Below, piece by piece: positions 2,304-53,769 of a DNA stretch of 64,000 nt; positions within the stretch are counted from its first letter, which is position 1; every line of letters begins with the position of its first letter. The stretch spans positions 1,426,001 through 1,490,000 of the forward strand of contig NZ_CP019239.1 in NCBI RefSeq assembly GCF_001955715.1. The letters run 5' to 3'. This DNA comes from Rhodoferax saidenbachensis. Lineage in GTDB: Bacteria > Pseudomonadota > Gammaproteobacteria > Burkholderiales > Burkholderiaceae_C. Below the pieces are notes generated by a model. The model did not search any database and was not told the DNA's origin. It saw only the letters and a program-made list of their open reading frames with translations. A program made the translations under genes and the position numbers.

Positions 2304-3521
2304 ATGCGAACCCTTGAACGTTTGAGAGTCTGGCTGCAGGATGTGGCCAAGGTGCCCTGGCTGGACGCCGCTACCACCCTGCGCGAGCGTTTCCGCGAGG
2401 ACCGTCTGGGCCTGACCGCCAGTAGCTTGACCTTTACCACCACGATTGCGCTGGTGCCGTTCATCACCGTGGCGTTGGCGGTGTTCACCGCTTTCCCCAT
2501 GTTTGCCAAGTTCCAGGACGTGATGCAGAAGTGGCTGATAGAGAGCCTGGTGCCCGACAACATTGCGCGCCAGGTGCTGGGCTACCTCAACCAATTTGCC
2601 GGCAAGGCCAGCAAACTGGGTGTGGCCGGTCTGGCGGTGCTGCTGGTGACCGCGCTGGCGCTGATCTTCACGATTGACCGCACGCTCAACAGTATCTGGC
2701 GGGTGCGCACACCGCGCCCCTTTGCGCAACGCGTGCTGCTGTACTGGGCGGCCATCACGCTGGGGCCGCTGCTGCTGGGTGCCAGCCTGAGCATGACCTC
2801 GTATGCCATCTCGGCATCCCGGAGTGTGGTTGGCGGTTTGCCCGGTGGTGTGGCCTTGTTGCTCGACATTTTGCAATTTGCGCTGGTGGCGTGCGGCATG
2901 GCGGCGATGTTCCGCTTTGTGCCCAACACCTATGTGCGCTGGGGCCATGCCTGGATGGGCGGACTGTTTGTCGCGACCTGTCTGGAGGTGGCCAAAAAAG
3001 GGCTGGCGCTGTACCTGAGCAAGGTGCCGACCTACTCGGTGGTCTACGGCGCTTTCGCCACCGTTCCGATTCTGCTGGTGTGGATTTATGTGGCCTGGGT
3101 CATCGTGCTGCTGGGTGCAGCGCTGACGGCCTATGTGCCCAGCCTGATTGCCGGCATCCCGCGCAAGCGCAGCGGATATGGATGGGAATTTCAGGTGGCG
3201 CTTGAAATACTGCAGCAGCTCGATCGGGTGCGCCAGGGAGAGCAGAAGGGCCTGACCATGGGGCAACTCAGCGCGGCGCTGCAGAGCGATTCGCTGCGTC
3301 TGGAGCCGATACTGGAATCTCTGGTGGGGCTGGACTGGATTGCGCAACTGCAAGAGACCCGGGATGCGTCAGGCGAGGCGCGGTTTGTGTTGCTGGTCGA
3401 TCCGCAGCAGACGACCCTGGAGCCGTTGTTGCGTACCTTGCTGCTGCCGGTCAATCTGGTGACCGAAAATATATACAAAAAAGGCCTGTGGTCGGCATCC
3501 AGCCTGCGTGAGGCGCTATGA
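2304..3521 (+). CDS. YihY/BrkB family inner membrane protein
   Basis: A 405-residue integral membrane protein of the YihY (formerly RNase BN/BrkB) family. Six or so helices fill residues 30-270 and a cytoplasmic winged-helix-like tail of about 130 residues follows. The old RNase BN assignment was an error for this family and the real role is unknown, with envelope transport proposed. I chose the ATG at 2304 (MRTLERLRVW); an ATG ten codons upstream overlaps the divergent gene's start region. The TGA stop lies inside a truncated copy of the GCTAT-N7-ATAGC repeat. Confidence 0.85.
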   Translation: MRTLERLRVWLQDVAKVPWLDAATTLRERFREDRLGLTASSLTFTTTIALVPFITVALAVFTAFPMFAKFQDVMQKWLIESLVPDNIARQVLGYLNQFAGKASKLGVAGLAVLLVTALALIFTIDRTLNSIWRVRTPRPFAQRVLLYWAAITLGPLLLGASLSMTSYAISASRSVVGGLPGGVALLLDILQFALVACGMAAMFRFVPNTYVRWGHAWMGGLFVATCLEVAKKGLALYLSKVPTYSVVYGAFATVPILLVWIYVAWVIVLLGAALTAYVPSLIAGIPRKRSGYGWEFQVALEILQQLDRVRQGEQKGLTMGQLSAALQSDSLRLEPILESLVGLDWIAQLQETRDASGEARFVLLVDPQQTTLEPLLRTLLLPVNLVTENIYKKGLWSASSLREAL

Positions 3522-3531
3522 AAGCAATAGC
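3515..3531 (+). repeat. Head-only copy of the GCTAT-N7-ATAGC repeat
   Basis: GCTAT, seven bases, then ATAGC, with the same spacing as the full-length copies elsewhere, but the TGCTTGCGC tail is missing. It overlaps the last codon and stop of the YihY gene. Confidence 0.5.
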
Positions 3532-3547
3532 GATCGAAGTCAACGCC

Positions 3548-3608
3548 GGGCCGCCCCAAGTTGACTTGCACCCCATCGGGGGGGCAGCCGCCAGGCTGGG
3601 CTGGGGGC
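3548..3608 (+). repeat. GC-rich intergenic repeat (GGGCCGCCCCAAG type), copy 1
   Basis: Begins GGGCCGCCCCAAG and continues through CCCC-ATC-GGGGGG to a CTGGGGGC end. A second copy with the same start and the same C-run/G-run hairpin is at 8003-8068. It lies between the convergent ends of the YihY and DUF962 genes, where a bidirectional transcription-stop role is possible. Confidence 0.55.
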
Positions 3609-3620
3609 ATTCGAATCAGT

Positions 3621-3959
3621 TCAGATCTTGACCTTGCCGGTCAGGATGTCCTTGTACATGACCCAGTCGCCCATGAAGCTGTAGAGCGGGCGCTTGAAGC
3701 TGGCGGGTTTGTTTTTCTCAAAGCCGAAATGGCCGATCCAGGCAAAACCGTAACCCCACAGCGGTGCGGTGAACAGGAAGATCACCAGACCGGTCACAAA
3801 AAACAGCAGCAGGCTGGCCAGCACCAGGGACGAGCCCACGAAGTGCAGGCGGCGGCAGGTCAGGTCACTGTGTTCGCTCAGGTAGAACGGGTAGAACTCG
3901 GCAAACGAAGTCATTTGCTTCGGGTCTGCCGCGGCGCTGGTTTCAATGGCGGTGTTCAT
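3621..3959 (-). CDS. DUF962 / Mpo1-like membrane protein
   Basis: A 112-residue protein with the DUF962 (Mpo1/YGL010w-like) pattern: an N-terminal FYPFYLSEHSD motif, one long hydrophobic hairpin at roughly residues 45-75, then HFGFEKNKPASFKRPLYSF, where the conserved His and NKPA are family hallmarks. The yeast member Mpo1 is a dioxygenase acting on 2-hydroxy fatty acids; whether bacterial short forms do this is unproven. It precedes nothing obvious on its strand, so it may be a single-gene unit. Confidence 0.8.
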   Translation of the reverse strand: MNTAIETSAAADPKQMTSFAEFYPFYLSEHSDLTCRRLHFVGSSLVLASLLLFFVTGLVIFLFTAPLWGYGFAWIGHFGFEKNKPASFKRPLYSFMGDWVMYKDILTGKVKI

Positions 3960-4010
3960 GGTCTGTCTCCTGGTGGGTCCGGGTTGTTATGGTGCTACTG
4001 TGTCGCGCGA

Positions 4011-4820
4011 TCAAGCGTTGAGAAACGCTTTGAGCGCAGCCAATGTGGCCTCAGGCGCTTCCGTCATCTGGCTGTGGCCCACAGCCAGCCGAACGACTGA
4101 ATGCATTTTCCCACTGGATTTCGCTTTGTCGATCAGGGTTTGTGCGGCCTTCGGCATCGTCATTTGGTCCATCGCGCCGAGCAAGAACAGCACGGGGCAG
4201 GTGATCTGCTCCATGGCCTGTTCGCCATTCGCATAGTTGTTGCAGGCAGAGAAGCCGCGGTGAAACACGTTGACCTTTGTGTTGCTGGCAATCACTCGGC
4301 GTCCCAATGCGAGGCCGCCACCAAAACTCCAGGTGCCAGGCGCCACGGGCGGCGCCAATGAGCTGCGTGAAAACACATTGACCATGTGCAAAGCCTTCTC
4401 AGACTCGTTCAGCGCCGCGTCCAGCAATGGTTGCGAGACCTTCATCGGGTAGGCCGTGCCAACCAGCGCCAGATGGCTGATGCGATCCTTCAGTTGCCCG
4501 GCTGTTTCCAGCGCAATCAGCGAACCCCAACTGTGGCCTACCAATGCCGCTTTTTGCACGCCCGCTGCATCCAGCAAAGCGGCAATGAAGGCAGCCGCCG
4601 CTTCTACGCTGGCGGGTGCTTCGCCTTCGCTGCGGCAATGGCCCGGCAGGTCGACCGCCAATACATTCCAGCCGTGGTTCGCAAAGTAGCGGCTCTGCAA
4701 AATCCAGACGCTGTGGTCGTTGATGACGCCGTGGATGAATACGACAGTAGGTTGTGTGGGGTTGAAGGGCTTGCCGCCGGTATAGCAGTACGCGGCAGCG
4801 CCGTTGACGGTGAGCTTCAT
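4011..4820 (-). CDS. Alpha/beta hydrolase
   Basis: A 269-residue alpha/beta-hydrolase fold enzyme. HGVINDH near residue 30 forms the oxyanion region, the nucleophile elbow is GHSWGS (Ser about 98), a late Asp sits in LGAMDQMT and the catalytic His in AVGHSQMTEAP. It has no signal peptide and is therefore cytoplasmic. The start overlaps the stop of the O-acetylhomoserine sulfhydrylase gene by 4 bp (ATGA), so the pair is translationally coupled. One guess is a carboxyl-ester hydrolase related to MetX-type acyltransferases, but nothing in the sequence fixes the substrate. Confidence 0.85.
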   Translation of the reverse strand: MKLTVNGAAAYCYTGGKPFNPTQPTVVFIHGVINDHSVWILQSRYFANHGWNVLAVDLPGHCRSEGEAPASVEAAAAFIAALLDAAGVQKAALVGHSWGSLIALETAGQLKDRISHLALVGTAYPMKVSQPLLDAALNESEKALHMVNVFSRSSLAPPVAPGTWSFGGGLALGRRVIASNTKVNVFHRGFSACNNYANGEQAMEQITCPVLFLLGAMDQMTMPKAAQTLIDKAKSSGKMHSVVRLAVGHSQMTEAPEATLAALKAFLNA

Positions 4821-6130
4821 GCTGCTTTCTCCGCCGCCTTCAGAGCGCGTTTGAGGTCATCCAAAAGATCCGCAGAATCTTCCAATCCAATCGACAGGCG
4901 AATCGTTCCCTGTGTAATGCCACCCTTGGCCAATGCTTCGTCGTCCATGCGAAAGTGGGTCGTGCTGGCCGGGTGGATCACCAGGCTGCGGCAGTCGCCC
5001 ACATTGGCCAGGTGGCTGAACACCTTGAGCGCTTCGACAAACGCCTTGCCCTGGGCGCGTGAGCCTTTCAAATCAAAGCTGAACACCGAGCCTGCGCCCT
5101 TGGGCAACAGCTTTTGCGCCAGCGCGTGGCTGGAGTGGCTCTCCAGCATGGGGTGGCCCACACGCGAGACAAAGGGGTGTGACGCCAGCAGCTCCACCAC
5201 CTTGGCCGTGTTGTGCATATGCCGCTCCATGCGCAGCGACAGGGTTTCTATGCCCTGCAAGATCAGCCAGGCCGAGTGCGGACTCATGCAGGCGCCAAAG
5301 TCGCGCAGCCCCTCGCGGCGCGCGCGCAGCAGGAAGGCGCCCACCGTGGATTCCTCGGTGAAAACCATGTTGTGAAAGCCCGCATAGGGCTCGCTCAGCT
5401 CCGGGAATTTGCCCGATTTATCCCAATCAAAACTGCCGCCGTCGACGACGATGCCGCCAATCACGGTGCCGTGGCCGCTGAGGAACTTGGTGGCCGAGTG
5501 GTAGACCAGATCGGCCCCTTGCTTGAACGGCTGCACCAGCCAGGGCGAGGTGAGGGTGGAGTCCACCAGCAGCGGCACACCGGCTTCGTGTGCGATTTGT
5601 GACACCGTGGGTGTGTCCAGCACGTCCAGCCCCGGGTTGCCCACGGTTTCGCCAAAGAACAGCTTGGTGTTCGGTTGCACCGCCTTGCACCAGCCGTCAA
5701 TGTCGCCCGGCTGCACAAAGGTGGTTTCAATGCCAAAGCGGCGCAGTGTGTAATGCAGCAAATTCTGCGAACCGCCATACAACGCCGTGGACGCCACGAT
5801 GTGCCCACCTGCGCCCATCAGCGTGGCGATGCTCAGATGCAGCGCGGCCTGGCCGCTGGCGGTGGTGATGGCCCCAATACCGCCTTCGAGTGCCGAGACG
5901 CGTTGCTCCAGCACGGCGTTGGTGGGGTTGCTGATGCGCGAGTAGACGTGTCCCGCACGTTCCAGGTTGAACAGCGAAGCGGCGTGTTCGCTGGACTCAA
6001 AAACAAAGGAAGTGGTGAGATGGATGGGGACGGCTCGTGCGCCCGTAGCGTCGGGCGCGGCGCCCGCGTGCAGGGAGAGGGTGTCGAAACCGGGGTCGGC
6101 GTAGCCGGGCATAGTGTTCTCCGCAGGCAA
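4817..6130 (-). CDS. metY: O-acetylhomoserine sulfhydrylase (PLP-dependent)
   Basis: A 437-residue member of the Cys/Met metabolism PLP family that makes homocysteine from O-acetylhomoserine and sulfide. The PLP lysine is Lys215 in HSATKFLSGHG, SRISNPTN marks the cofactor site and ASGQAALH lies near residue 91. The length above 420 residues and the long insert after the PLP lysine favour MetY over the shorter MetB/MetZ enzymes. It shares a 4-bp overlap with the hydrolase behind it. The 72-bp region upstream, shared with the CBS gene, is too short for a SAM riboswitch and I see none. An in-frame ATG at codon 7 is an alternative start. Confidence 0.9.
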   Translation of the reverse strand: MPAENTMPGYADPGFDTLSLHAGAAPDATGARAVPIHLTTSFVFESSEHAASLFNLERAGHVYSRISNPTNAVLEQRVSALEGGIGAITTASGQAALHLSIATLMGAGGHIVASTALYGGSQNLLHYTLRRFGIETTFVQPGDIDGWCKAVQPNTKLFFGETVGNPGLDVLDTPTVSQIAHEAGVPLLVDSTLTSPWLVQPFKQGADLVYHSATKFLSGHGTVIGGIVVDGGSFDWDKSGKFPELSEPYAGFHNMVFTEESTVGAFLLRARREGLRDFGACMSPHSAWLILQGIETLSLRMERHMHNTAKVVELLASHPFVSRVGHPMLESHSSHALAQKLLPKGAGSVFSFDLKGSRAQGKAFVEALKVFSHLANVGDCRSLVIHPASTTHFRMDDEALAKGGITQGTIRLSIGLEDSADLLDDLKRALKAAEKAA

Positions 6131-6202
6131 CTAGGAATGAATCTTCAGGATTGTGGGCTATATTAAAGTCATAGTCCTAACCGAGCACCCCGAGGAAAAA
6201 CC

Positions 6203-6661
6203 ATGAAAGTCAGCGACATCCTGCGCGTCAAGGGCGGCACGCTCTTCATCATCAAGCCAGAAGACAGCCTGGCCGATGCCGCGCAACTGATGGCCGAGAA
6301 GGACATTGGCTCGCTGGTGGTGATCTCCCACGGCCTGGTGGTGGGCATGCTGACCTTCCGTGAAGTGATCCAGGCGGTCGTGAAAAACGGCGGCAGTTTC
6401 GGCACCACCACGGTGTACCGCGCCATGGACCCCGGCCCACTGACCTGCACCATGGAAACCGAAATGGACGAAGTCCGCCGCATGATGCTGGACCGCCATG
6501 CGCGTTACATGCCGGTCATCGACAACCGCATGCTCATGGGTGTGGTCAGCTTCTACGACGTGGCCAAGGCCGTTGTGGACAGCCAGAACTTCGAGAACAA
6601 GATGCTCAAGGCCTACATCCGCGATTGGCCCGAGGGCGAAGAGCCTGCCGAGAAAGCCTGA
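6203..6661 (+). CDS. CBS-pair domain protein
   Basis: A 152-residue cytoplasmic protein that is almost entirely two CBS domains (residues about 8-65 and 75-135), followed by a short acidic tail. Stand-alone CBS pairs bind adenine nucleotides or similar ligands and regulate partner proteins; the partner is unknown. The second CBS carries the usual RYMPVIDNRMLMGVVS. It is transcribed divergently from metY. The RBS is GAGGAAAAACC just before the ATG. Confidence 0.9.
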   Translation: MKVSDILRVKGGTLFIIKPEDSLADAAQLMAEKDIGSLVVISHGLVVGMLTFREVIQAVVKNGGSFGTTTVYRAMDPGPLTCTMETEMDEVRRMMLDRHARYMPVIDNRMLMGVVSFYDVAKAVVDSQNFENKMLKAYIRDWPEGEEPAEKA

Positions 6662-6682
6662 TCCAGGCTTTTCAGCCCCGAT

Positions 6683-7903
6683 TCACGCCGTGCTGGCGTG
6701 GATCATTTCCCGCACGCGCGGGTAGATCTGCTGGTTCCATTTCTTGCCGCTGAAGACACCGTAGTGGCCCACACCGGTCTGGATGTGGTGGGTCTTCATA
6801 TAGGGGCGAATGTTGCTGCACAGGTCCTGTGCGGCCACGGTCTGTCCTACCGCACAAATGTCGTCCCGCTCACCTTCCACCGTCATCAGTGCGGTGCGGC
6901 GAATCGCTGCCGGGTTGACGATGCGGTCTTTGTACGTGAGTTTGCCCAGTGGCAGGTCGTAGGTCTGGAAGACTTTTTCCACCGTCTCCAGGTAGAACTC
7001 GGCCGGCAGGTCATTCACTGCCAGGTACTCGTCGTAAAACACCTTGATGATGTTGGCCTTTTCCAGGTCGCCATTGACCAGGTGCTGGTACATGTCCTTG
7101 AACGATTGTTTATGGCGGTCCAGGTTCATGCTCAAAAAGGCGCTGACCTGCACAAAGCCCGGGTACACCCGGCGCATGAAACCGGCGTGGGGCATGGGCA
7201 CATGGCTGATCAGGTTTTTCTCGAACCACTCGATGGGCTTGCTGACCGCCAGTTTGTTGACTTCGGTGGGGTTGACGCGGCAGTCCACCGGGCCAGCCAT
7301 CAGGGTCAGGCTGCGCGGCTGGGCCGGGTTGTCGTCTTCGGCCATGATGGCCGTGGCCGCCAGCGCCGCTACGCAGGGCTGGCAGACGGACACGATGTGG
7401 GTACCGGGACCAATGGTCTCGGTGAAACGGATCATGTGGTCGATGTAATCGTCCAGGCCAAAGGGGCCGTGTTTCAGCGCCACATCACGCGCGTTGTGCC
7501 AGTCGGTGATGTAGACGTCGTGGTCCTGCAGCAGGGTGCGCACGGTTTCGCGCAGCAGGGTGGCAAAGTGGCCCGACAGGGGCGCCACCAGCAACACCGG
7601 CGGCTGGTGGGGCAGGTTGGCCGGGGTTTCCTTTTTGAAGCGCAGCAGCGTGCCAAAGGGCATGGTCAGCACTTTTTCTTCGGTGACCGGCAATTCCTGT
7701 TCCCCGACCTTCACCGACGTGATGCCGTACGCCGGGCGCGAATGGGTGAGTCGCATGCGCGAGAACACCTCCATGGACGCAGAGAGCTTGCGCATCCAGC
7801 TGCCTTCGGTGTTGTCCATCCAGAGGTTTGCGCTGCTGCCCTGTGCCAGCAGCCGGAACGGCGACATCAGGTCGGACTGGGATTGGTAAGCCTGGTAGAG
7901 CAT
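6683..7903 (-). CDS. phaZ: Intracellular polyhydroxyalkanoate depolymerase
   Basis: A 406-residue enzyme that mobilises intracellular poly-3-hydroxybutyrate granules. The motif IVSVCQPCVA (Cys174) corresponds to the Cys nucleophile of the Ralstonia/Cupriavidus PhaZ1 type, which replaces the lipase-box Ser. The Asp and His of the triad lie in VEGERDDICAVGQT and TGVGHYGVFSGKKW. There is no signal peptide, as expected for a granule-associated cytosolic enzyme. The start is the ATG at 7901-7903, with GCAGGAAC as RBS. An upstream in-frame ATG reads through the intergenic region and was rejected. It is the only PHA enzyme here; phaR lies 42 kb away. Confidence 0.9.
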   Translation of the reverse strand: MLYQAYQSQSDLMSPFRLLAQGSSANLWMDNTEGSWMRKLSASMEVFSRMRLTHSRPAYGITSVKVGEQELPVTEEKVLTMPFGTLLRFKKETPANLPHQPPVLLVAPLSGHFATLLRETVRTLLQDHDVYITDWHNARDVALKHGPFGLDDYIDHMIRFTETIGPGTHIVSVCQPCVAALAATAIMAEDDNPAQPRSLTLMAGPVDCRVNPTEVNKLAVSKPIEWFEKNLISHVPMPHAGFMRRVYPGFVQVSAFLSMNLDRHKQSFKDMYQHLVNGDLEKANIIKVFYDEYLAVNDLPAEFYLETVEKVFQTYDLPLGKLTYKDRIVNPAAIRRTALMTVEGERDDICAVGQTVAAQDLCSNIRPYMKTHHIQTGVGHYGVFSGKKWNQQIYPRVREMIHASTA

Positions 7904-9666: not shown

Positions 9667-9669
9667 TAA

Positions 9670-10953: not shown

Positions 10954-10969
10954 GGCAAGCCTTTAAGTT

Positions 10970-11023
10970 GCTATGAGTTTAATAGCTGCTGGCGCACATC
11001 CCCAAAGGGCTGGGGGCCATTTT
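10970..11023 (+). repeat. GCTAT-N7-ATAGC repeat, full copy
   Basis: Head GCTAT-N7-ATAGC, then TGCTGGCGC, 11 nt, GGGCT and GGCCATTTT, the full architecture of the family. It lies in the divergent region between the D-threonine-aldolase-like gene and aroC. Confidence 0.85.
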
Positions 11024-11112
11024 GATGCCAAAAATCCCCTGTTCTCAGCCGACCTGCGCCGCGCCGCATGGCGCAGCAGGGGGGGCCCACCCGTGGGGGA
11101 TAATCCTGCTCC

Positions 11113-12210: not shown

Positions 12211-13401
12211 ATGCCCATAGCCGGGAATCGTCGGCACCTGATCCCGTTCTCGGCCCTCTCGGCCAGCTACTTCGCACACATCGGGTTTTTCAACCCCTAC
12301 CTGCCGTTGTGGCTCAAGGACTTGGGGCTGGGGCTGTTTGCCATCAGTCTGCTCACGTCGGTACAGGCCGCCACGCGCCTGTTTGCGCCCTATGGCTGGG
12401 GCTGGCTCAGCGACCACACGGGGGAACGCGTCAAACTTTTGCGTTACGGGGCCACGGCTGCGTTGCTGGTGTCTGCGGGGCTGTGGTTTGACTTTGGCGT
12501 GTGGTGGCTGGCTGCCGTGCTCTTGTTGATGTTCACCCACACCAGTTCCATGATGCCCATGAGCGAAGCCGCCATGGCGCACCTGGTGAGCAATGGCGGT
12601 GCCTTTGATGCCAAACGTTACGGCCGCGTGCGCCTGTGGGGCTCGTTGGGTTTTCTGGTCACGGTGTTTGTGGCGGGGGGCTGGTTCGAGCGGTATGGCA
12701 TGCGGCACTTTCCGGCGTGGACGGCGCTCACGCTCCTCGCAGTGGTGGCCAGTGTCTGGAGCCTGCCGGACCTGAAAGAGGCGGTCCATCCGCACGCAGC
12801 CAAGGTATCGGTCTGGCCCATCCTGCAGCAGCGCCCGGTGCAGTGGCTGTTTGCCTCGCTGTTTTTCCATGTGCTTTCACACATGGGCATGTATGTGTTT
12901 TTCTCGCTGTATCTGGATTCGCTGGGTTACAGCAAATCCATGATCGGGGTGTTGTGGGCCGTCTCGGTGATCGTGGAGATTGCCTGGTTCTTCACCCAGA
13001 GCCGCTGGTTGCCGCTGCTGAGCCTGACCGCCTGGTTGGTGGTCTGCGCGGGTGTGATGGCGCTGCGCATGGGCATCACGGCCAGCGCCGCTTCGGTCCT
13101 GCCGTTGTTGCTGCTGGCGCAGACCCTGCATGCGCTGACCTTTGCCGCCCACCACAGCGTGTGTATTGCCTTGCTGTCGCACCATTTCCCGGGCCAGTTG
13201 CGCGGACGCGGGCAGGCCTTGTACACCGTGATCGGCTACGGTTTTCCGGGTGTCATTGGTGGCATTCTGGGGGGCGTTTTGAGCACAAAATACGGCCTGG
13301 CCAGCGTGTTCTGGGCGACAGCAGCTATCAGTTTGATAGCGTTTCTCTGCAGCTTCAAGGTTTGGCGTCTACAGCATCCAGCCAGCGCGACAGCGGGTTG
13401 A
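12211..13401 (+). CDS. MFS transporter, HcaT-like (MFS_1_like)
   Basis: A 396-residue carrier with twelve predicted helices, resembling the 3-phenylpropionate transporter HcaT group (opening FSALSASYFAHIGFFNPYLPLWLKDLGL; SDHTGERVKLLRYG between TM2 and TM3; KRYGRVRLWGSLGF mid-protein). The substrate is not predictable. Its 3-prime end overlaps the end of the convergent EamA gene by 47 bp. A head copy of the dispersed repeat is read within the last transmembrane helix as TAAISLIAF (13318-13340). Confidence 0.85.
   Translation: MPIAGNRRHLIPFSALSASYFAHIGFFNPYLPLWLKDLGLGLFAISLLTSVQAATRLFAPYGWGWLSDHTGERVKLLRYGATAALLVSAGLWFDFGVWWLAAVLLLMFTHTSSMMPMSEAAMAHLVSNGGAFDAKRYGRVRLWGSLGFLVTVFVAGGWFERYGMRHFPAWTALTLLAVVASVWSLPDLKEAVHPHAAKVSVWPILQQRPVQWLFASLFFHVLSHMGMYVFFSLYLDSLGYSKSMIGVLWAVSVIVEIAWFFTQSRWLPLLSLTAWLVVCAGVMALRMGITASAASVLPLLLLAQTLHALTFAAHHSVCIALLSHHFPGQLRGRGQALYTVIGYGFPGVIGGILGGVLSTKYGLASVFWATAAISLIAFLCSFKVWRLQHPASATAG
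13318..13340 (-). repeat. GCTAT-N7-ATAGC repeat head, inside the MFS gene
   Basis: On the minus strand GCTAT-N7-ATAGC-TGCTG. Only the head is recognisable. In the MFS frame it reads AAISLIA, the same reading frame and pattern as the reverse copy in the EamA gene at 47479-47538 (AAMVCIA). Confidence 0.5.
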
Positions 13402-22358: not shown

Positions 22359-23174
22359 ATGACTGCTTCCGCTATTGCCACGGCCACAACGGCCTCTGCC
22401 CATCTGCCCACGTTATTCGTGTCGCACGGTGCGCCGCTGTTTGCGATCGAGCCCGGCAGCACCGGCCCAGCGCTTGCGGCTTGGGGCCAGACCTTGCCCG
22501 CCGATTTGCGGGGCATTGTCATCATGTCGCCGCACTGGATGGCGCGGACACCGGCCGTCATGACCACGGCGCGGCCCGAAACCTGGCACGACTTTGGTGG
22601 CTTCCCGCCTGCGCTGTACGAGCTGCAATACCCCGCTGCCGGTAACCCTGCGCTGGCGCAGGAGGTGATGGACTTGCTGGCCGGTGCCGGCATGGACGCG
22701 AAGGCGGATGCGCAGCGCCCCTTTGACCACGGCACCTGGGTGCCGCTGATGCACATGCTGCCCAAGGCCAACGTGCCTATCGTGCAGGTGGCCTTGCCCA
22801 TGGGCTGGAATGCGCGCCAGGTCTATGCCATGGGCCAGGCGCTGCAAAGCCTGCGCGACAAGGGCGTGCTGGTCATGGGTTCAGGCTCCATGACGCACAA
22901 CCTGGGCGAATTTTTTGGTGGCGAGCGCGCCGTGGCGCCGTATGTCACCGAGTTCAGCCGCTGGATCGAAAGCAAGCTGGCTGCCGGAGATCTGGATGCC
23001 TTGCTGGACTATCGGCAACAGGCGCCGCACGCCCACCGCGCGCACCCCAGCGAAGACCACTTTTTGCCGCTGTTTTTTACGCTGGGTGCCGCAGGCGCCC
23101 AGGCCCGGCCCGACTACCTGAGCCGCGAGGTGATGTACAGCATGCTCGCCATGGACAGCTTCACTTTGCAATGA
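22359..23174 (+). CDS. Extradiol ring-cleavage dioxygenase, DODA (YgiD) type
   Basis: A 271-residue class III extradiol dioxygenase of the 4,5-DOPA dioxygenase/YgiD family. Conserved pieces are LFVSHGAPLFAI (metal His), MSPHWMA, DFGGFPPALYELQYPAAGNP, FDHGTWVPLMHMLP (catalytic His) and GSGSMTHNLGEF (metal His). It should open a catechol ring with Fe(II) or Zn and O2; the natural substrate is unknown. It starts about 180 bp from the divergent LysR gene, the likely regulator. Confidence 0.88.
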   Translation: MTASAIATATTASAHLPTLFVSHGAPLFAIEPGSTGPALAAWGQTLPADLRGIVIMSPHWMARTPAVMTTARPETWHDFGGFPPALYELQYPAAGNPALAQEVMDLLAGAGMDAKADAQRPFDHGTWVPLMHMLPKANVPIVQVALPMGWNARQVYAMGQALQSLRDKGVLVMGSGSMTHNLGEFFGGERAVAPYVTEFSRWIESKLAAGDLDALLDYRQQAPHAHRAHPSEDHFLPLFFTLGAAGAQARPDYLSREVMYSMLAMDSFTLQ

Positions 23175-23227
23175 AAATGGCCTGAAGCCCGCATGTGGAT
23201 TGCGCAAGCAGCTACTGAAAATATAGC
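23173..23227 (-). repeat. GCTAT-N7-ATAGC repeat, full copy
   Basis: Read on the minus strand: GCTAT-N7-GTAGC, TGCTTGCGC, 11 nt, GGGCT, then AGGCCATTTTC. Lies directly behind the dioxygenase stop. Same orientation as the copy at 24101-24154, so the pair brackets the next gene as direct repeats. Confidence 0.85.
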
Positions 23228-23291
23228 GTTTCCAGATGTTGGCGCATCGCCTGCACGGCGGGTGGTTGATGCTGTGGCAGGATGGAGGCCT

Positions 23292-24095
23292 ATGGTGAAA
23301 TTCTGCTTTTCTGTGCGTGCGGCAGCGCGGTTGCTGCAGCGGTGTTGGGTGCTTGCGTTGTTCGTGTTGTCGGGTGCCAGTGCGATAGCGGCGGCGCCAT
23401 CGGCTGCCGCACCGGTGACGCTGGTAGTGGGGTTTTTTGACTTGCTGCCACATGCCACCACTGCGCGCGGCGGGCAGGCACAGGGCGCGGCCATCGACTA
23501 TTTCAACCTGATCGCGAAAGAAATGGGCGTCAGCGTCCGCTACACGCAACTGCCCATGGCGCGCCTGCTGCTGGACCCCAAGGTGGACATGGTGCTCTAC
23601 ATGGGCAAGAACCCCGAGCGGCTGCTCAAGTTTGATTTTCCGCGCCAGCCGCTGATGAAAATGGAAGGCGGTGTGGCAGTGGACACCAACAGCCCGCTGA
23701 CCCGCATCGACACGGCCGATGACCTGCTGAACCTGACCATTGGTGTGTGGGATGCCGGTTACCGCGGCGCGCTGATGCGTGACACACGCCTCACGCTTTA
23801 CAGCATGCCCATCGAGGCACTCGCACAGCGCGGGCTGCAGATGGTGGTGACGAAACGCCTGGACGGTTTCTACAACCCCGACATTCATTCGCTGCGCCAC
23901 CAGATCAAGAACCTGGGTCTGCAAGACCAGGTGCGCGTGGTCAGCCTGCCGTTGGCAGAAGACGGGTTGTACTCGGCGTTTGTCAAGGCCAGCGCGCCGC
24001 GTTACCTGGCCACGTTTGAAAAGGCCTACGCCAAGGTAAACAAGAAGATGAGCTACGAAGCCTTCCTGGCAAAGTACCTTGCACAAGAAAAATAG
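23292..24095 (+). CDS. Periplasmic solute-binding-like protein (family 3 type)
   Basis: A 267-residue exported protein with a long signal peptide (residues 1-37, ending near AIAAAPS) and a two-lobed type 2 periplasmic-binding fold related to amino acid ABC receptors. AAIDYFNLIAKEMGVSVRYTQLPMARLLLDPKVDMVLYMGKNP matches lobe 1. No transporter genes adjoin, so it may act in sensing or be an orphan receptor. The ATG at 23292 follows GGATGGAGG. It is flanked by two same-direction copies of the dispersed repeat. Confidence 0.75.
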   Translation: MVKFCFSVRAAARLLQRCWVLALFVLSGASAIAAAPSAAAPVTLVVGFFDLLPHATTARGGQAQGAAIDYFNLIAKEMGVSVRYTQLPMARLLLDPKVDMVLYMGKNPERLLKFDFPRQPLMKMEGGVAVDTNSPLTRIDTADDLLNLTIGVWDAGYRGALMRDTRLTLYSMPIEALAQRGLQMVVTKRLDGFYNPDIHSLRHQIKNLGLQDQVRVVSLPLAEDGLYSAFVKASAPRYLATFEKAYAKVNKKMSYEAFLAKYLAQEK

Positions 24096-24100
24096 TAGTC

Positions 24101-24154
24101 AAAAATGGTCGCAGCCCTTGTAGAGTGTGCGCAAGCAGCTATTGAATTAATAGC
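24101..24154 (-). repeat. GCTAT-N7-ATAGC repeat, full copy
   Basis: On the minus strand GCTAT-N7-ATAGC, TGCTTGCGC, 11 nt, GGGCT, then ACCATTTTTG. It starts 5 bp after the stop of the solute-binding-like gene and separates it from the convergent FliD-like gene. Confidence 0.85.
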
Positions 24155-24171
24155 GTTCTAGTGCGTCCGGC

Positions 24172-30558: not shown

Positions 30559-33441
<2,883 letters not shown>

Positions 33442-34019: not shown

Positions 34020-35195
34020 TCAGCCGCGGAAATAGTTGGTGGGCACAAAAGGCATGGCACTGACCACCATGGGCACGGGCTTGCCGCGCACGATGGCCAC
34101 CACTTTGCTGCCCACAGCCGCCCAGGCGGCATCTACATAACCCATGGCCACCGGCGTGTCGATGGTCGGGCCCAGCAGGCCACTGGTCACTTCGCCGATC
34201 TTGTTGCCCGCGCCGTCTTGCAGCTCGGTGTGGTCGCGCACGGGGATGCGTTCCTGGGCGATCAGTCCCACGCGTTTTCGAGTGCCTGTATTTATGCCAT
34301 TTTGGGCTGTAGCCCCCGTGGATTGTGCGAGAGCAGCTAGTATTTTTGTAGCACCCGGAAAGCCACCTTCACGCGCACCACCCGCGCGGCGCACCTTTTG
34401 CATCGCCCACAACAGGCTGGCTTCGACCGGCGTGGTGCCTGTATCAATGTCATTGCCATACAGGCACAGGCCCGCTTCCAGGCGCAGCGAGTTGCGTGCG
34501 CCCAGGCCAATCGGCTTGACTTCGGGCTGGGCCAGCAGCGCGCGGGCCAGCGCGTCGGCGTGGTCGTTATGGACAGAGATTTCAAATCCGTCTTCGCCGG
34601 TGTAGCCGCTACGGGTGAGGAACACGTCGATCTTTTGCGTGCCTGTGTCCACGGTGAAATTGCCACCGGTCATGAACACCAGCTTTTCCACGCCGGGTGC
34701 CAGGCGGGAGAGGGCGGTGACGGCCTGCGGGCCTTGCAGCGCCAGCAGAGCGTATTCGGGCATGGTGATCACATCGCAGCGGTTGCCAATGCGTTCCTGG
34801 ATGTGGGCAATGTCGCCCACCTTGCAGGCGCCGTTGACGATCACGAAGAGTTCGTTGTTGCCCTTGTTGAAGAACATCAGGTCATCAATGATGGTGCCTT
34901 CGTCGGTCAGCAGCAGGCCGTAGCGCTGTTTGCCCACCGCCAGGTCAATCACGTCCACCGGCATCAGCGTTTCAAACGCTGCGGCGGCATCGGGCCCCAC
35001 CAAGCGCAATTGGCCCATGTGAGACACGTCAAACAGGCCGGCAGCTTTGCGGGTGTGATGGTGTTCGGCCATCAGGCCGGCGGGGTATTGCACGGGCATG
35101 GAATAGCCGGCAAAGGGCACCATGCGGGCGCCCAATTCGATGTGCAGCGCGTTGAGCGGCGTGGTTAGCAGGGTGTCAGTAGCGGGAGCGGACAT
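34020..35195 (-). CDS. gcvT: Glycine cleavage system T protein (aminomethyltransferase)
   Basis: A 391-residue enzyme that releases ammonia from the aminomethyl-H protein and forms 5,10-methylene-tetrahydrofolate. Motifs are GARMVPFAGYSMPVQYP, LFDVSHMGQLRL, SRSGYTGEDGFEI-like TRSGYTGEDGFEIS and LGARNSLRLEAGLCLYG. I chose MSAPATDTLL (35195); longer readings enter the riboswitch leader. Between GATKIL and RKRVGL there is an unusually long stretch encoded by the dispersed repeat at 34295-34352 (peptide GATKILAALAQSTGATAQNG). First gene behind a tandem glycine riboswitch. Confidence 0.95.
   Translation of the reverse strand: MSAPATDTLLTTPLNALHIELGARMVPFAGYSMPVQYPAGLMAEHHHTRKAAGLFDVSHMGQLRLVGPDAAAAFETLMPVDVIDLAVGKQRYGLLLTDEGTIIDDLMFFNKGNNELFVIVNGACKVGDIAHIQERIGNRCDVITMPEYALLALQGPQAVTALSRLAPGVEKLVFMTGGNFTVDTGTQKIDVFLTRSGYTGEDGFEISVHNDHADALARALLAQPEVKPIGLGARNSLRLEAGLCLYGNDIDTGTTPVEASLLWAMQKVRRAGGAREGGFPGATKILAALAQSTGATAQNGINTGTRKRVGLIAQERIPVRDHTELQDGAGNKIGEVTSGLLGPTIDTPVAMGYVDAAWAAVGSKVVAIVRGKPVPMVVSAMPFVPTNYFRG
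34295..34352 (-). repeat. GCTAT-N7-ATAGC repeat inside gcvT, full length
   Basis: Minus strand: GCTAC-N7-CTAGC, TGCTCTCGC, 11 nt, GGGCT, ACAGCCCAAAATGGC. It is in frame, without a stop, and encodes ATKILAALAQSTGATAQNG. It sits in the linker between the two halves of the T protein. Confidence 0.8.
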
Positions 35196-35282
35196 GGCGG
35201 GTACCAGGCGGCCCAGCGCGGGGCGCTGGAGGGGGCAAATCAAAACCCGAGGCGCACGCATAATTGCGCACGCCCGGTGCTG

Positions 35283-35522
35283 CCCCCGCTGTCCGCTTTA
35301 CCTGAGAGATTCGCCGGGCCTGCGTGCACGCCTAAAAGGGGTGCGCAGACTGCGGTTTGCTCCTTCGGTGGGCTGCAGTGCATGCAGCCTCTCTCCAGTG
35401 GGGAAACGTCAACTCCGGTGAGGGAGATCAACGCGGGTCAGTCCTTTTGCCTGAGCGTTCAGACCGCTGCAATCAGCAATCTTGCGCCTTCGGCGGTTTC
35501 CTCGAAGGAAACTCTCTCCTGA
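35283..35522 (-). promoter_or_regulatory. Tandem glycine riboswitch (two aptamers) upstream of gcvT
   Basis: On the minus strand the leader reads CAGGAGAGAGTTTCC...CCGAAGGCGCAAG...CTCAGGCAAAAGGACTG (aptamer 1, about 35415-35522), then ACTGGAGAGAGGCTGC...CCGAAGGAGCAAACC...CTCTCAGGTAAAGCGGACAG (aptamer 2, about 35283-35410). GGAGAG, CCGAAGG-GCAA and CUCAGGNAAA-GGAC are the conserved elements of glycine aptamers, present twice. Glycine binding is expected to turn on gcvTHP. No clear terminator hairpin was seen, so control may act on translation or on the roughly 90-nt segment before the gene. Confidence 0.93.
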
Positions 35523-35531
35523 CTGGGTGGG

Positions 35532-40403: not shown

Positions 40404-40418
40404 CATACGCCTCAAATT

Positions 40419-40478
40419 ACTATGCTTTTGATAGCTGGTTGCGCACACTCCATGCGGGCTAGAGGCCTATTTCATGCC
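40419..40478 (+). repeat. GCTAT-N7-ATAGC repeat, full copy
   Basis: ACTAT-N7-ATAGC, TGGTTGCGC, 11 nt, GGGCT, AGAGGCC, then TATTTCATGCC. One of the best-preserved copies. Lies between the convergent ends of plsC and the ABC transporter operon. Confidence 0.88.
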
Positions 40479-40527
40479 TAAACCCGCTGTGCGGGCTGCG
40501 CAGCAGCCCCAGGGCGGGGCGCCGGTG

Positions 40528-46849: not shown

Positions 46850-47752
46850 GTGTTAGGTGGGATATTGGCCGGCCTGGGGGCCGGGGCCCTGTGGGGTCTG
46901 GTGTTCATCGCGCCGCAGTTGGCGCCGGGTCTGTCTGCGGTGGACCTGGTGGCCGGGCGTTATCTCTTTTACGGACTCACCTCGCTGCTGGTGATGGCGG
47001 TGCAGATGCGTTCGCGCCCGTTGCCCACCTGGCGCCAGGCTGGAGCCGCCGCAGGCCTGAGCGTGCTGGGCTTCTCTGGTTATTACCTGCTGCTGGTGCT
47101 GGCCATTCGTGATGCGGGGCCTGCACTGCCCACGCTGATGGTGGGCACCATTCCGCTGTGGGTGATGTTGCTGGGCAAACCCGAGCATCTGCAATGGCGG
47201 CAATTGCTGCCGGGCCTGCTGTTGACCGCGTTGGGGCTGGTGCTGATGGTGGAAGTCCCGCACGCCGCAGACGGGCAGGACGGCGGCGCGCAGGCCTGGA
47301 CCTACTGGCGCGGTGTGGCCTACGCCGTCGCCGCGATGCTGAGCTGGACGTTCTTTGCGGTGCTGAATTCGGCGTGGCTCAAGACCCACCGCGACATTTC
47401 CACCACCGACTGGGCCAACTGGATGGGGGTGGCCGCCGGGGTTGCCGCGCTGGTGCTATGGGCTGCGGTAGGTTCAGAGCCAAAAGTGCTGCTAGCCCAG
47501 GCGGATATTGCGCAAGCAGCTATGGTTTGTATAGCAATTGGTGTCGGCTCAGGTTGGCTGGCCACGGTATTGTGGAACCGCGCCAGCCGCCGTTTGAGCG
47601 CCAGCCTGTGCGGTCAGCTCATCGTGAGCGAAACATTGTTTGGGCTCGCGTTCGCCTTCGCCGTGCTGGGCCAGCGCTTCACATTGGCGCAGATCGTGGC
47701 CAGTGTGTTGTTTGTGCTCGGTATCCTGGCGTCCATCCGAGCGCACAGATAG
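46850..47752 (+). CDS. EamA/DMT family transporter
   Basis: A 300-residue transporter with ten helices in two EamA halves. The start is GTG at 46850, immediately after the SDR stop, so translation is coupled. The transmembrane helix near residues 215-230 (ADIAQAAMVCIAIGVG) is encoded by a reverse copy of the dispersed repeat (47479-47538), read in frame without a stop. The substrate is unknown. Confidence 0.85.
   Translation: MLGGILAGLGAGALWGLVFIAPQLAPGLSAVDLVAGRYLFYGLTSLLVMAVQMRSRPLPTWRQAGAAAGLSVLGFSGYYLLLVLAIRDAGPALPTLMVGTIPLWVMLLGKPEHLQWRQLLPGLLLTALGLVLMVEVPHAADGQDGGAQAWTYWRGVAYAVAAMLSWTFFAVLNSAWLKTHRDISTTDWANWMGVAAGVAALVLWAAVGSEPKVLLAQADIAQAAMVCIAIGVGSGWLATVLWNRASRRLSASLCGQLIVSETLFGLAFAFAVLGQRFTLAQIVASVLFVLGILASIRAHR
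47479..47538 (-). repeat. GCTAT-N7-ATAGC repeat inside the EamA transporter gene, full length
   Basis: Minus strand: GCTAT-N7-ATAGC, TGCTTGCGC, 11 nt, GGGCT, AGCAGCACTTTTGG. The gene reads the opposite strand, giving PKVLLAQADIAQAAMVCIAI. In frame and stop-free across the whole copy. Confidence 0.8.
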
Positions 47753-48799: not shown

Positions 48800-48814
48800 T
48801 TGAGGCTTCGATTT

Positions 48815-48891: not shown

Positions 48892-48896
48892 AATTC

Positions 48897-48937: not shown

Positions 48938-49057
48938 CGGGCCTGCCTGCGCCTGACGCCTAGGGTAAACCTAGGTTTTGGGTGGCTGGTCTCTACCTAG
49001 AATGTGCTGCACTGCAATACATTTTCGGCTTCTTCAGGGGGGCCGGTTCCGCTCGCT

Positions 49058-49504: not shown

Positions 49505-49596
49505 GTTGGCTCTGTTTTCACCTCGTTCGCTCTCGGAAAATGCGGGTGAGCAGCCCCTAGGTTGGGCTCCCGGGGGAATGCTGGGACAATAGGGGT

Positions 49597-51000: not shown

Positions 51001-51053
51001 ATGCAAGAGGGAAGGGGGATGCTGCGCATTCCCCAAAAGGGAATTTCAGGCAA

Positions 51054-51086
51054 AGAAAAAGGCCTGTGACTTGCGTCACAGGCCTT
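51054..51086 (-). terminator. Terminator of tRNA-Leu on the minus strand
   Basis: AAGGCCTGTGAC, TTGC/GCAA loop, GTCACAGGCCTT, a 12-bp perfect stem (51059-51086) with a TTTTT run on the minus strand. On the plus strand it has only a weak T-tract but may also slow rimO read-through. Confidence 0.8.
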
Positions 51087-51094
51087 ATCTGTTG

Positions 51095-51181
51095 TGGTGC
51101 CCAGGAGAAGACTCGAACTTCCACGGTCTTGCAACCGCTAGCACCTGAAGCTAGTGCGTCTACCAATTTCGCCACCTGGGC
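51095..51181 (-). tRNA. tRNA-Leu (anticodon CAG)
   Basis: An 87-nt class II tRNA with encoded CCA. The acceptor stem is GCCCAGG with CCTGGGC, the D-loop is GGCGAAATTGGTAGACGC, the anticodon arm CTAGC-TTCAGGT-GCTAG, a long variable arm follows and the T-arm is AGTTCGAGTCT. It is convergent with rimO. Confidence 0.95.
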
Positions 51182-51474
51182 AAGTCTCAAATTATAGCAC
51201 TGGTCTGAATGCTCTTTTGGCGGGCCTCGCAACTTTTTTGCTACCGATGCAAAATCGGTCTATAGACAGTGGGGCTGATGGCTGCACGGCGGGTGCTTCC
51301 ACAAAACAACATTGCAGTTCGTTGGCTTCGGCGTGCTGTCAAATTCGCAACATTTCTAGCGCATACTTATAAGCGTCTATCCAACTCAGCCGTCACGGCA
51401 CCTCGGGAAAGAGAGAGGGTTTTATCAAAAACATTAGCCATTCCAGCGGACTGCTGGACGAAGTTGAAGGCGTC

Positions 51475-53712
51475 GTGCAAGGCCACCGCGACGGGCACGG
51501 TTTCGTAGCCCGCGACGACGGTGCCCCCGACATCTATTTACCCCCCAATGAAATGCGCGCGGTGCTGCACAAGGACCGCGTCAAGGTACGCATTGTGCGC
51601 AGCGACCGCAAGGGCCGACCCGAGGGCCGCGTTGCCGAGATCATTGAGCGTTCCACGCAACCCATCATTGGGCGGCTGCTGCAGGAAAGCGGCGTATGGC
51701 TGGTTGCGCCCGAAGACAAGCGCTACGGCCAGGATGTGCTCATCCCTAAGGGGGCTACCAGCGTTGCGAAAGCAGGGCAGGTGGTGGTGGTGGAACTGGT
51801 GGAGCCGCCAGCCTTGTTTGGCCAGCCCGTGGGGCGCATCAAGGAAGTGCTGGGTGAGGTAGACGATCCCGGCATGGAGATTGAAATTGCCGTGCGCAAG
51901 TACAGCGTGCCGCACGAGTTCTCGGAAGCCTGTGTGGCCCTGGCGCGCACGCTGCCGGACAAAGTGCGGCCCGAGGACCGCAGCCACCGTGTGGATTTGA
52001 CCGATGTGCCCTTGGTCACCATTGATGGTGAAGATGCGCGCGATTTTGACGATGCTGTGTATTGCGAACCGGCCACCAAAGGCCGCGGCAAGTCTGCCGT
52101 CAAAGGCTGGCGCCTGCTGGTGGCCATTGCCGATGTAAGCCACTATGTGGAAACCGGATCGGCCATCGACGTCGATGCCTACGACCGTGCCACCAGTGTG
52201 TATTTCCCGCGCCGGGTGATTCCCATGCTGCCGGAAAAACTCTCCAACGGCCTGTGTTCGCTGAACCCGGAAGTCGAACGCCTGTGCATGGTGTGCGACA
52301 TGTTTGTTACGGCGGATGGCGAGGTCGAGGCGTACCAGTTTTACCCGGCGCTGATGTGGAGTCACGCACGGTTCACCTATACCGAGGTGGCCGCAATCCT
52401 GGGCAACACCCGTGGGCCGGAGGCGCAAAAACGCAAGGAACGTGTGGGTGACCTGCTGAATCTGCATGGTGTGTTCCAGGCCTTGCTGAAGTCACGCCAG
52501 AAGCGTGGCGCGGTGGACTTTGAAACCACTGAGACGCAGATCATTTGCGACGAGAACGGGCGTATTGAAAAGATCGTGCCCCGCACCCGCAATGTGGCCC
52601 ACCGCGTGATTGAAGAGGCCATGCTGGCGGCCAACGTGTGCAGTGCAGACTTCATTGCCCAGAGCAAACATTTTGGCCTGTTCCGTGTGCACGAAGGGCC
52701 AACGCCCGAGAAGAAGGAAATCCTGCGCAACTACCTGAAGGCCAGTGGCGTGGGCATGACGATCAGCGACGATCCCGCGCCGGGTGAGTTCCAGGCCATT
52801 GCCAACGCCACCAAGGATCGCCCGGACGCGCAGCAAATCCACTCGATGTTGTTGCGCTCCATGCAGCAGGCGATTTACACGCCCATCAACAGCGGCCACT
52901 TTGGCTTGGCGTACGACGCGTATACCCACTTCACCAGCCCAATCCGGCGTTATCCGGATTTGCTGGTACACCGGGTGATCAAGGCGATTCTGGCCAAGAC
53001 GCGTTACCAGTTGCCCACGTTGCCGACACCGGGTGAAGCCCATGCCAAGCTGGCGCGCCGGCTGGAAAAAGGTCTGGCGTCCAAGGTGGGCGAGCCGGGC
53101 ATCAAGCCCAAAAAGACCAATGCCGAAGGCATGGCCTGGGCGGCAGCCGGCTTGCATTGCAGTGCCAATGAGCGCCGTGCCGACGAAGCCAGCCGTGACG
53201 TGGAAGCCTGGCTCAAGTGCAAGTACATGCGCGAGCATCTGGGTGAGGAATACGGCGGTGTGGTCACCTCGGCCACGACGTTTGGCTTGTTTGTCACGTT
53301 GGACGCCATGTATGTGGAAGGCCTGGTACACATCACCGAGTTGGGCGGTGAATACTTCCGCTTTGACGAGGCGCGCCAGGAACTGCGCGGTGAACGCACC
53401 GGCATCCGTTACGCCATCGGTACGCGGGTGAGGATTCAGGTGAGCCGTGTGGACCTGGACGGTCGCAAGATCGATTTCCGTCTGGTGCAGGAGGGGCAAA
53501 GCTTGCAACCGAGGCCTGGCCCTGACAAAGGGCCACAGCGCGAAGGCAAGGTCCGCGGCGAGTTTGCGGACCGAGCCGATGCGGAGATGCCCGGCAACAC
53601 CAGCTACAAAAGCAAGGTGCGCCAGCACACCAGTGCCAAACCGGCACGTAACGCCAAGGCCGAACCCAAGACCAGTTCCGCGCCGAAGAAAGCAGCCAAA
53701 AAGCGACGCTAA
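51475..53712 (+). CDS. rnr: Ribonuclease R
   Basis: A 745-residue form from the GTG at 51475. It is a 3-prime-to-5-prime hydrolytic exoribonuclease for structured RNA. Cold-shock domains come first, then the RNB catalytic domain with TIDGEDARDFDDAVYCE (metal-binding Asp residues), an S1 domain and a Lys/Ala-rich basic tail. The E. coli-type N-terminal HTH is absent. The in-frame sequence from 51373 carries more of the first OB fold (LLDEVEGVVQGHRDGHGF), yet offers no ATG, GTG or TTG before 51475. A weak GAGAGAGGG lies before an ATC at 51424, so the true start may be non-canonical. Confidence 0.9.
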   Translation: MQGHRDGHGFVARDDGAPDIYLPPNEMRAVLHKDRVKVRIVRSDRKGRPEGRVAEIIERSTQPIIGRLLQESGVWLVAPEDKRYGQDVLIPKGATSVAKAGQVVVVELVEPPALFGQPVGRIKEVLGEVDDPGMEIEIAVRKYSVPHEFSEACVALARTLPDKVRPEDRSHRVDLTDVPLVTIDGEDARDFDDAVYCEPATKGRGKSAVKGWRLLVAIADVSHYVETGSAIDVDAYDRATSVYFPRRVIPMLPEKLSNGLCSLNPEVERLCMVCDMFVTADGEVEAYQFYPALMWSHARFTYTEVAAILGNTRGPEAQKRKERVGDLLNLHGVFQALLKSRQKRGAVDFETTETQIICDENGRIEKIVPRTRNVAHRVIEEAMLAANVCSADFIAQSKHFGLFRVHEGPTPEKKEILRNYLKASGVGMTISDDPAPGEFQAIANATKDRPDAQQIHSMLLRSMQQAIYTPINSGHFGLAYDAYTHFTSPIRRYPDLLVHRVIKAILAKTRYQLPTLPTPGEAHAKLARRLEKGLASKVGEPGIKPKKTNAEGMAWAAAGLHCSANERRADEASRDVEAWLKCKYMREHLGEEYGGVVTSATTFGLFVTLDAMYVEGLVHITELGGEYFRFDEARQELRGERTGIRYAIGTRVRIQVSRVDLDGRKIDFRLVQEGQSLQPRPGPDKGPQREGKVRGEFADRADAEMPGNTSYKSKVRQHTSAKPARNAKAEPKTSSAPKKAAKKRR

Positions 53713-53714
53713 TT

Positions 53715-53769
53715 GCTATAAAAATAGCAGCTGCTTGCGCATATTCTGCGAGGGTTAGAGGCCATTTTC
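53715..53769 (+). repeat. GCTAT-N7-ATAGC repeat, full copy
   Basis: GCTAT-N7-GCAGC, TGCTTGCGC, 11 nt, GGGTT, AGAGGCCATTTTC. It fills the entire 55-bp gap between the convergent rnr and nnrD genes, and the nnrD stop codon lies within its end. Confidence 0.87.

Follow-up and report, generated by a model that had tools for sequence, protein, structure and literature searches.

The 64,000-nucleotide stretch of Rhodoferax saidenbachensis DNA analyzed in the present work (contig NZ_CP019239.1, positions 1,426,001 to 1,490,000 of the forward strand; hereafter the window) carries ten copies of a short repeat, which lie between predicted genes as well as within them, including the genes gcvP and gcvT. 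The copies were located with a 69-bp profile trained on 30 copies from the same genome that match a strict 28-bp core, none of which lies in the window. Exactly ten window sites score above zero, in the range 8.4-75.7 bits, and these are the ten sites that an earlier reading of the DNA (the first-pass annotation) had grouped as one repeat family; the eleventh-best window site scores -37.9 bits and the maximum for the reversed window is -29.1 bits, which upholds the grouping. As judged from its sequence, the family is real, abundant, inserted, fixed in length and partly coding, while the identity of its putative mobilizer, a transposase of the RAYT group 1/TIRYT type, is plausible but unproven.

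The window sits in one contig of 4,264,855 bases, in which the strict core, with up to two mismatches allowed, has 241 matches, while the reversed pattern has none. A 400-kb sample, made up of 20 regularly spaced stretches of 20 kb from beyond the window and containing a few of the 30 training copies, has 61 copies that score above zero with the 69-bp profile, and nothing in the reversed control of these stretches scores above -25. Extrapolation gives approximately 650 copies per 4.26-Mb chromosome (95% interval 497-835), so that the abundance beyond chance that a genome-wide scan had been expected to reveal is borne out; about 1% of the chromosome (~650 x 69 bp in 4.26 Mb) would consist of one short repeat. 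The fixed spacing ascribed to the unit is likewise found in the long stretches scanned, where 11 nt separate AGCTGCTTGCGC from G[GC]GCT in 38 of 39 exact matches and 7 nt separate GCTAT from ATAGCTGC in all 23 matches. The exact head GCTAT-N7-ATAGC that had been attributed to every copy is present in five of the ten, and the block of 11 nucleotides described as variable is indeed fixed in length but is partly conserved, with the consensus A-n-a-t-t-c-n-a-c-a-a. The 69-bp consensus has the ends AnTTGCTAT and AAAT, without terminal inverted repeats; A-n-T-T precedes the head, with AGCA there on the opposite strand.

Table 1. Repeat copies and copy-bearing genes in the window; gene predictions around the copies are automatic codon-usage calls, not annotation, and profile scores are in bits.
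Feature	Position	Strand	Score and context
Diverged, weak copy	3467-3535	-	10.9; overlaps 3' end of predicted gene 2274-3521 (+)
Copy	10966-11034	+	71.2; intergenic by automatic gene calls
Diverged copy	13276-13344	-	8.4; antisense frame 0, in frame within predicted gene 12211-13401 (+)
Copy	23163-23231	-	51.5; where tandem open reading frames 22359-23174 (+) and 23193-24095 (+) meet
Copy	24090-24158	-	67.5; 76-bp convergent intergenic region
gcvP (glycine dehydrogenase), hosts copy	30559-33441	-	TIGR00461, 1403.9 bits; PDB alignment
Diverged copy in gcvP	32171-32239	-	18.8; sense frame 1, residues ~400-423
gcvT (aminomethyltransferase), hosts copy	34020-35261	-	NF010093, 497.2 bits
Copy in gcvT	34288-34356	-	56.7; sense frame 1, residues ~301-324
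Copy	40415-40483	+	75.7; 124-bp convergent intergenic region
Copy	47471-47539	-	54.0; antisense frame 0, in frame within predicted gene 46850-47752 (+)
Copy	53711-53779	+	70.3; 55-bp convergent intergenic region

Among 73 copies scoring above -15, 31 lie inside predicted genes, 41 between genes and one at a gene edge, which gives an intergenic share of 41 of the 72 classified copies as against 15% for random points (random points fall within genes in 85% of cases, in convergent gaps in 2.4%, in tandem gaps in 6.5% and in divergent gaps in 2.2%). Copies prefer gaps between convergent genes, which hold 19 of the 41 intergenic copies compared to an expected 21.6%; 18 of the remainder lie in tandem and four in divergent gaps. 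The copies are solitary, with the nearest two 435 bp apart and a median spacing of 4067 bp over 464 kb, and no paired or clustered alternating arrangement of the BIME or REPIN kind occurs in this 464-kb sample.

Comparison of orthologous loci, which had been proposed as a way of locating insertion boundaries, shows the repeat to be an inserted unit of discrete, fixed length, at sites that are empty in relatives. At the aroB-dgt junction a copy is present in two Rhodoferax metagenome genomes (L219 and L151) and absent from a third (L150), in which aroB and dgt overlap by ATGA at the position where the copy would be; the net difference is 67 bp relative to L219 and 64 bp relative to L151, with flanks that are 85-90% identical. 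Across the 64 of 80 loci in which this junction was found, loci that carry a copy have a median gap of 84 bp (n=25), and those that lack one a median gap of 20 bp (n=35). Repeat variants are also shown, on comparison of their letters, to differ between lineages. In one pair of genomes with 88-90% identity, compared over a single contig from each, all 21 mapped copies of one contig and 18 of the 19 mapped in the other have a partner, the comparison having left out six of 27 and four of 24 copies for which no two-sided mapping was obtained, together with one more of the 24.

The consensus is free of stop codons in two frames only, sense frame 1 and antisense frame 0, and 19 of the 22 wholly intragenic copies, including those in gcvP and gcvT, use one of these (nine the former and ten the latter, with three in other frames). 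The conserved enzymes among the hosts include, in addition to the products of gcvP and gcvT, ThiL, TrpF, EarP, DapF and a threonylcarbamoyl-AMP synthase of the Sua5 type. Relative to the best solved relative, the gain is ~11 residues in GcvT (whose copy region is longer than that of 3gir by this amount), ~11 in ThiL and DapF, ~8 in EarP, ~1 in Sua5, ~1 in GcvP (relative to 9uz6) and ~0 in TrpF. The GcvT linker spans 15-26 residues in close relatives (78 of 120 matched the anchors). In ThiL the anchor-to-anchor length is 65 residues in the genome analyzed here, while among 21 strict-match-free Comamonadaceae it is 53-58 residues in 13, 61 in two and 65-66 in six, the last group including four Rhodoferax whose segment no longer resembles the repeat. 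A genome counts as repeat-free in this survey if it has no strict-core match, and two such genomes (G047 and G132) nevertheless carry element-like ThiL segments; four of the 30 genomes surveyed (G007, G015, G114 and G246) have no row. No empty ThiL allele was found among 120 close homologues, 81 of which missed the anchor pattern. Since six of the strict-match-free relatives have a ThiL segment of 65-66 residues, the extra length is, on this comparison of homologues, either older than the recognizable repeat or has outlasted it.

Two further copies, in locus L241, overlap the N-terminal part of predicted, exported-looking proteins (6209-6709 and 2104-2532, both on the minus strand). One of these proteins has a weak LolB match (29.5 bits, cut-off 59.6) and contains the repeat-coded stretch FIAGCA, which resembles a lipobox.

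The presence of the repeat in many Comamonadaceae, which the first-pass annotation had surmised, is confirmed by strict matches, which 47 of 200 genomes of the family and 48 of 100 of the genus contain, the genome analyzed here being counted in both cases; the two counts rest on different patterns and are not comparable in scale, and the genus meant is Rhodoferax as broadly defined by GTDB, taken from the names of close relatives. Within the genus the number of strict matches per genome ranges from 0 to 241, and it is because copy number varies so widely that gain, loss and the mobilizer become testable, by comparison and by gene removal in cultured Rhodoferax. Carriage by plasmids or phages was rejected, since matches occur in three of 72,556 plasmid records and the 50,697 phage records contain one partial, doubtful Mycoplasmopsis match. 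The three plasmid copies (L132, L133 and L134) belong to Delftia sp. KV29 (IncP), Rhodoferax antarcticus and Comamonadaceae bacterium OS-4, and each lies at most ~1.1 kb from an annotated transposase gene.

The constant architecture had originally been attributed to maintenance by RNA or DNA structure, with covariation suggested as the means of detecting a conserved fold. Neither line of evidence supports this. In an alignment of 160 non-redundant copies drawn from many genomes, the head pairs (-11,-1) and (-10,-2) show matching bases in 69% and 67% of the sequences, compared to 71% and 70% expected from independent columns, and the outer three pairs are constant, which leaves too little variation for a covariation signal; no covariation is found in the head across these copies. 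The fold z-scores of the ten window copies range from -1.48 to +0.38, none being unusually stable, and the structural reading was dropped on both counts. The most strongly linked columns of the alignment, 12 and 24, are non-complementary, and they define two subfamilies, GCGCA..GGGCT and GCGCT..GCGCT. What is conserved is the sequence and the length, as in a protein-bound site. A role as intrinsic terminators was also rejected: in the 40 kb of the window that was scanned, with the copies at 3467 and 32171 outside the scanned part, terminator-like matches overlap two of eight copies (10999-11016 and 13324-13340). Rfam at gathering thresholds reports two tRNAs and two glycine riboswitch matches in the window, none of which coincides with a copy; a tandem pair of glycine riboswitch aptamers (RF00504) lies at 35279-35531 (-), upstream of the copy-bearing gcvT.

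No transposase was seen adjoining any of the ten window copies, as had been noted at the outset, so that the spread of the repeat must have occurred in trans. The genome (G000) contains one Y1 transposase gene, encoding 232 amino acids, whose product matches PF01797 with 44.5 bits, carries the motifs NHFH and YMDLNP, and scores 76.8 bits, below the cut-off of 80, against NF047646, ‘REP-associated tyrosine transposase’ (RAYT). The gene is flanked by GGGGTCGGATTC / GAATCTGACCCC repeats and a GGGACA motif near the GGGGWSAS type; the terminal repeat in this genome, GGGGTCGG, is one base off GGGGWSAS, and most relatives have GGGGTCAG. By these motifs and terminal repeats the candidate fits the TIRYT type (RAYT group 1, subclass 2.1). 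A search of three transposase proteins for a C-terminal helix-turn-helix found no Pfam domain of this kind at E up to 10.

The candidate is linked to the repeat by a variant copy that lies directly behind its stop codon and within the terminal repeats (GGGACATATCAAAAAAGATAGC...CGCA-N11-GGGCT...TTTT), in which a terminal motif of the GGGGACA(C/T) type takes the place of the left arm GCTAT. A Y1 gene is present in all 20 repeat-bearing genomes tested (19 by Pfam, G141 by protein), and in 17 of these either the TIRYT-type match or the Pfam match is the sole one. Eight of 19 transposase loci, a set in which the TIRYT gene of G015 itself has no locus, have a 3' copy with a score above -15, where the reversed-sequence maximum is -36, and 5' copies are found at L051 and L056; with a threshold of -25, a 3' copy is found at ten of 80 named transposase loci as against none of 80 control regions. 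In 12 genomes, the variant letters of the transposase-end copy agree with those of further copies from the respective genome (permutation p=0.004). The quality of the 3' copy also tracks genome-wide copy number over 70 genomes (phylogenetic contrasts, r=0.50, sign-flip p<0.00005), a set of 30 genus and 40 family loci that is non-random in that it comprises the 30 closest genus transposases, 28 of the closest family ones and 12 repeat-rich genomes. A remnant of the head (AGC at the exact offset) occurs at the transposase end in ten of 28 strict-match-free genomes, which would fit an old shared head and decay alike.

Several other features of these transposases may be recorded. The TIRYT-type gene is mostly single-copy across the family, with a similar adjacent reading frame in at least three loci (L041, L054 and L056), and, being near-universal as well, it looks as if it had been domesticated. 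Genome G015 has, besides one TIRYT-type gene, twenty Y1_Tnp matches, including four near-identical 153-residue IS200-like copies and five split ones. In L050, copies at 1066 (+) and 2534 (-) flank one transposase gene; their 34-bp core is identical, including the variable part, and their left arms differ.

The explanation favoured here, tentatively and as one that still falls short of being probable, is that the repeat is a non-autonomous REP-like insertion element of ~67-69 bp, spread in trans by a single Y1 transposase. Such an element would have expanded to ~650 copies in a Rhodoferax-type chromosome through copy-and-paste by the one Y1 (HUH) tyrosine transposase of the genome, putatively a member of RAYT group 1/TIRYT. 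The gene for this transposase terminates in a variant copy fused to its GGGGACA(C/T)-type end motif. The spaces behind genes would be favoured either at insertion or in survival, and intragenic copies would persist because the 69-bp unit corresponds to 23 codons that are stop-free in one sense and one antisense frame.

Several observations weigh against this explanation. The sharing of 21 of 21 and 18 of 19 copies between the two genomes compared implies that the family has moved, but slowly, and turnover on this measure is slow. No target-site duplication is visible at aroB-dgt, the sole empty site read base by base, where the flanks are 85-90% identical. The full gain of 23 residues is seen in none of the seven host proteins, in which the net change is 0-12 residues. 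If the contrasts are confined to the genus, the association between 3'-copy quality and copy number has r=0.44 and p=0.11. The aroB-dgt copy, used as a control, tracks copy density with rho 0.49 compared to 0.43 for the transposase-linked copy over 64 loci, and its occupancy above zero is 25 of 64 as against three of 64 for the transposase end (seven of 64 above -25); because this control equals or exceeds the transposase end, the transposase cannot be distinguished by correlation or by occupancy. Presence of the gene had to be rejected as a predictor of repeats, since a TIRYT-type transposase occurs in 190 of 200 family genomes, most of them without repeat matches. Five repeat-rich genomes (G136, G190, G010, G128 and G085) have no 3' copy with a recognizable body, in a comparison that omits three of 30 genus loci without a recognized frame (L091, L096 and L097), and the 20 kb around the transposase of the genome analyzed here (L253) contain three copies above zero, compared to a sample mean of 3.05, which is no enrichment.

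Some of these points are accommodated by a rival explanation that is nevertheless considered rather unlikely, namely that the family is old and no longer transposing, is kept by selection at gene ends and is homogenized by recombination. The repeat would then serve as a DNA binding site, form the end of an RNA or insulate convergent genes from one another, and the transposase-linked copy would merely be one of many gene ends with a repeat, which agrees with the behaviour of the aroB-dgt control copy, the slow turnover, the preference for convergent gaps and conservation in sequence rather than in structure. What such selection would not lead one to expect is that 31 of 73 copies lie within predicted genes, with antisense orientation in 11 of the 22 that are wholly intragenic, that the letters at two variable positions follow the genome, that strict copy number ranges from 0 to 241 within one genus, or that terminator-like matches are so few among the scanned window copies.

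It is improbable that a short repeat-bearing single strand pairs with a site of partial similarity and takes the place of the sequence there instead of being inserted as a block. Such overwriting would account for the lone unshared copy of the genome pair, which sits in G265 at a site where the sequence of G214 is unrelated but almost as long, for the copies in TrpF, GcvP and Sua5, which change length by 0 to ~1 residue, and for those in GcvT, ThiL, EarP and DapF, which add just ~8-12 of 23 residues. However, the intergenic aroB-dgt site gains almost the whole unit, the TrpF and GcvP copies that leave length unchanged score low (24 and 19), and an identical picture would arise if old coding copies had been inserted and had then undergone a compensating loss; trimming of old insertions by selection and overwriting would both explain the partial gains. 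A combination of these ideas, in which a RAYT group 1 transposase that has been domesticated and passed on vertically maintains the genome-wide population of the non-palindromic 69-bp repeat by means of overwriting single strands, is considered decidedly improbable. Released short single strands would in that case overwrite partly matching sites with little or no change of length, and would supply ready-made peptide segments (IAACAxSTGA) to enzymes, GcvT, GcvP, ThiL and TrpF among them.

Mobilization of a classical miniature inverted-repeat transposable element (MITE) by the DDE transposase of an unrelated insertion sequence is a very remote prospect: the repeat is small, non-coding, high in copy number and discretely inserted, but its consensus differs from that of a MITE in having no terminal inverted repeats, and no target duplication is visible at the empty aroB-dgt site. 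The work of Mattes (2008) on Polaromonas JS666 is cited in a review for MITEs. Identity with BRE, the Betaproteobacteria repeat element described in Bordetella, is the least credible proposal, since BRE, which according to PMC3110155 is reported in Comamonadaceae with some intragenic copies and a similar length, measures 75-91 bp in Bordetella, has 69% G+C and is often tandem, whereas the nearest neighbours here are 435 bp apart, and since, as a weak argument, Polaromonas JS666, which has the most BREs in the table of that source, shows no copy above zero in 20.7 kb (L192).

The repeat can be regarded as a variant of REP-like and RPE-like repeats that has not been previously described in the open-licence literature searched, in which no published account of the core string or of repeats in these genera was found; PMC2755013 and PMC5374385 mention palindromic repeats as CRISPR only, and none of the repeat-family names looked for in PMC12306157 was met there. 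The known repeat most likely to overlap with it is BRE, also a short repeat of Betaproteobacteria that sometimes lies inside genes; being longer and G+C-richer in Bordetella and often tandem, it appears distinct by its description in PMC3110155.

The likeness to repetitive extragenic palindromic (REP) sequences with their RAYT (TnpA-REP) transposases consists in the occurrence of short copies by the hundred, preferentially between genes in convergent or tandem arrangement. A Y1 transposase gene accompanied by a variant copy would be a further likeness, on which the aroB-dgt control site, behaving alike, bears as well. The repeat differs from REP in its length (69 bp as against 20-40), in the lack of a covarying palindrome among the 160 copies, in the occurrence of single copies rather than BIME or REPIN pairs in the sample, in the ~40% of copies that lie inside genes, and in the absence of the GT[AG]G / GTGG tag at the hairpin foot, the 5' GT[AG]G tetranucleotide being a REP hallmark according to PMC6006769. 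Of the characters that define REP, the tag, the palindrome and the pairing fail, while the copy number and the mostly extragenic placement hold.

With the TIRYT/TIRtron systems (RAYT group 1, TnpA-Y1 subclass 2.1) the candidate transposase, its motifs and its terminal repeats are shared, but the abundant repeat here is a segment between the gene and the terminal inverted repeat (TIR) rather than the TIR itself. The survey in PMC6006769 is reported to have found no REP-like sequences adjoining subclass 2.1 transposase genes, and PMC3733652 describes TIR families of moderate size only. The present repeat would give these transposases, described as lacking a partner repeat, a candidate for that role.

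The closest parallel for the in-frame copies is provided, by analogy, by the Rickettsia palindromic elements (RPEs), which the review PMC10969869 describes as short repeats of ~150 bp found in frame in unrelated metabolic genes. The Rhodoferax repeat is shorter, at 69 bp, and lacks both a conserved fold and a palindromic unit of the RPE type, only the outer three head pairs being constant, and more than half of its copies are intergenic. In-frame insertion itself is matched, with 19 of 22 copies in the stop-free frames and a gain of ~8-12 residues in four of seven proteins and of 0-1 in three. The repeat would be a counterpart of the RPEs beyond Rickettsia, as a supplier of peptide segments to conserved enzymes.

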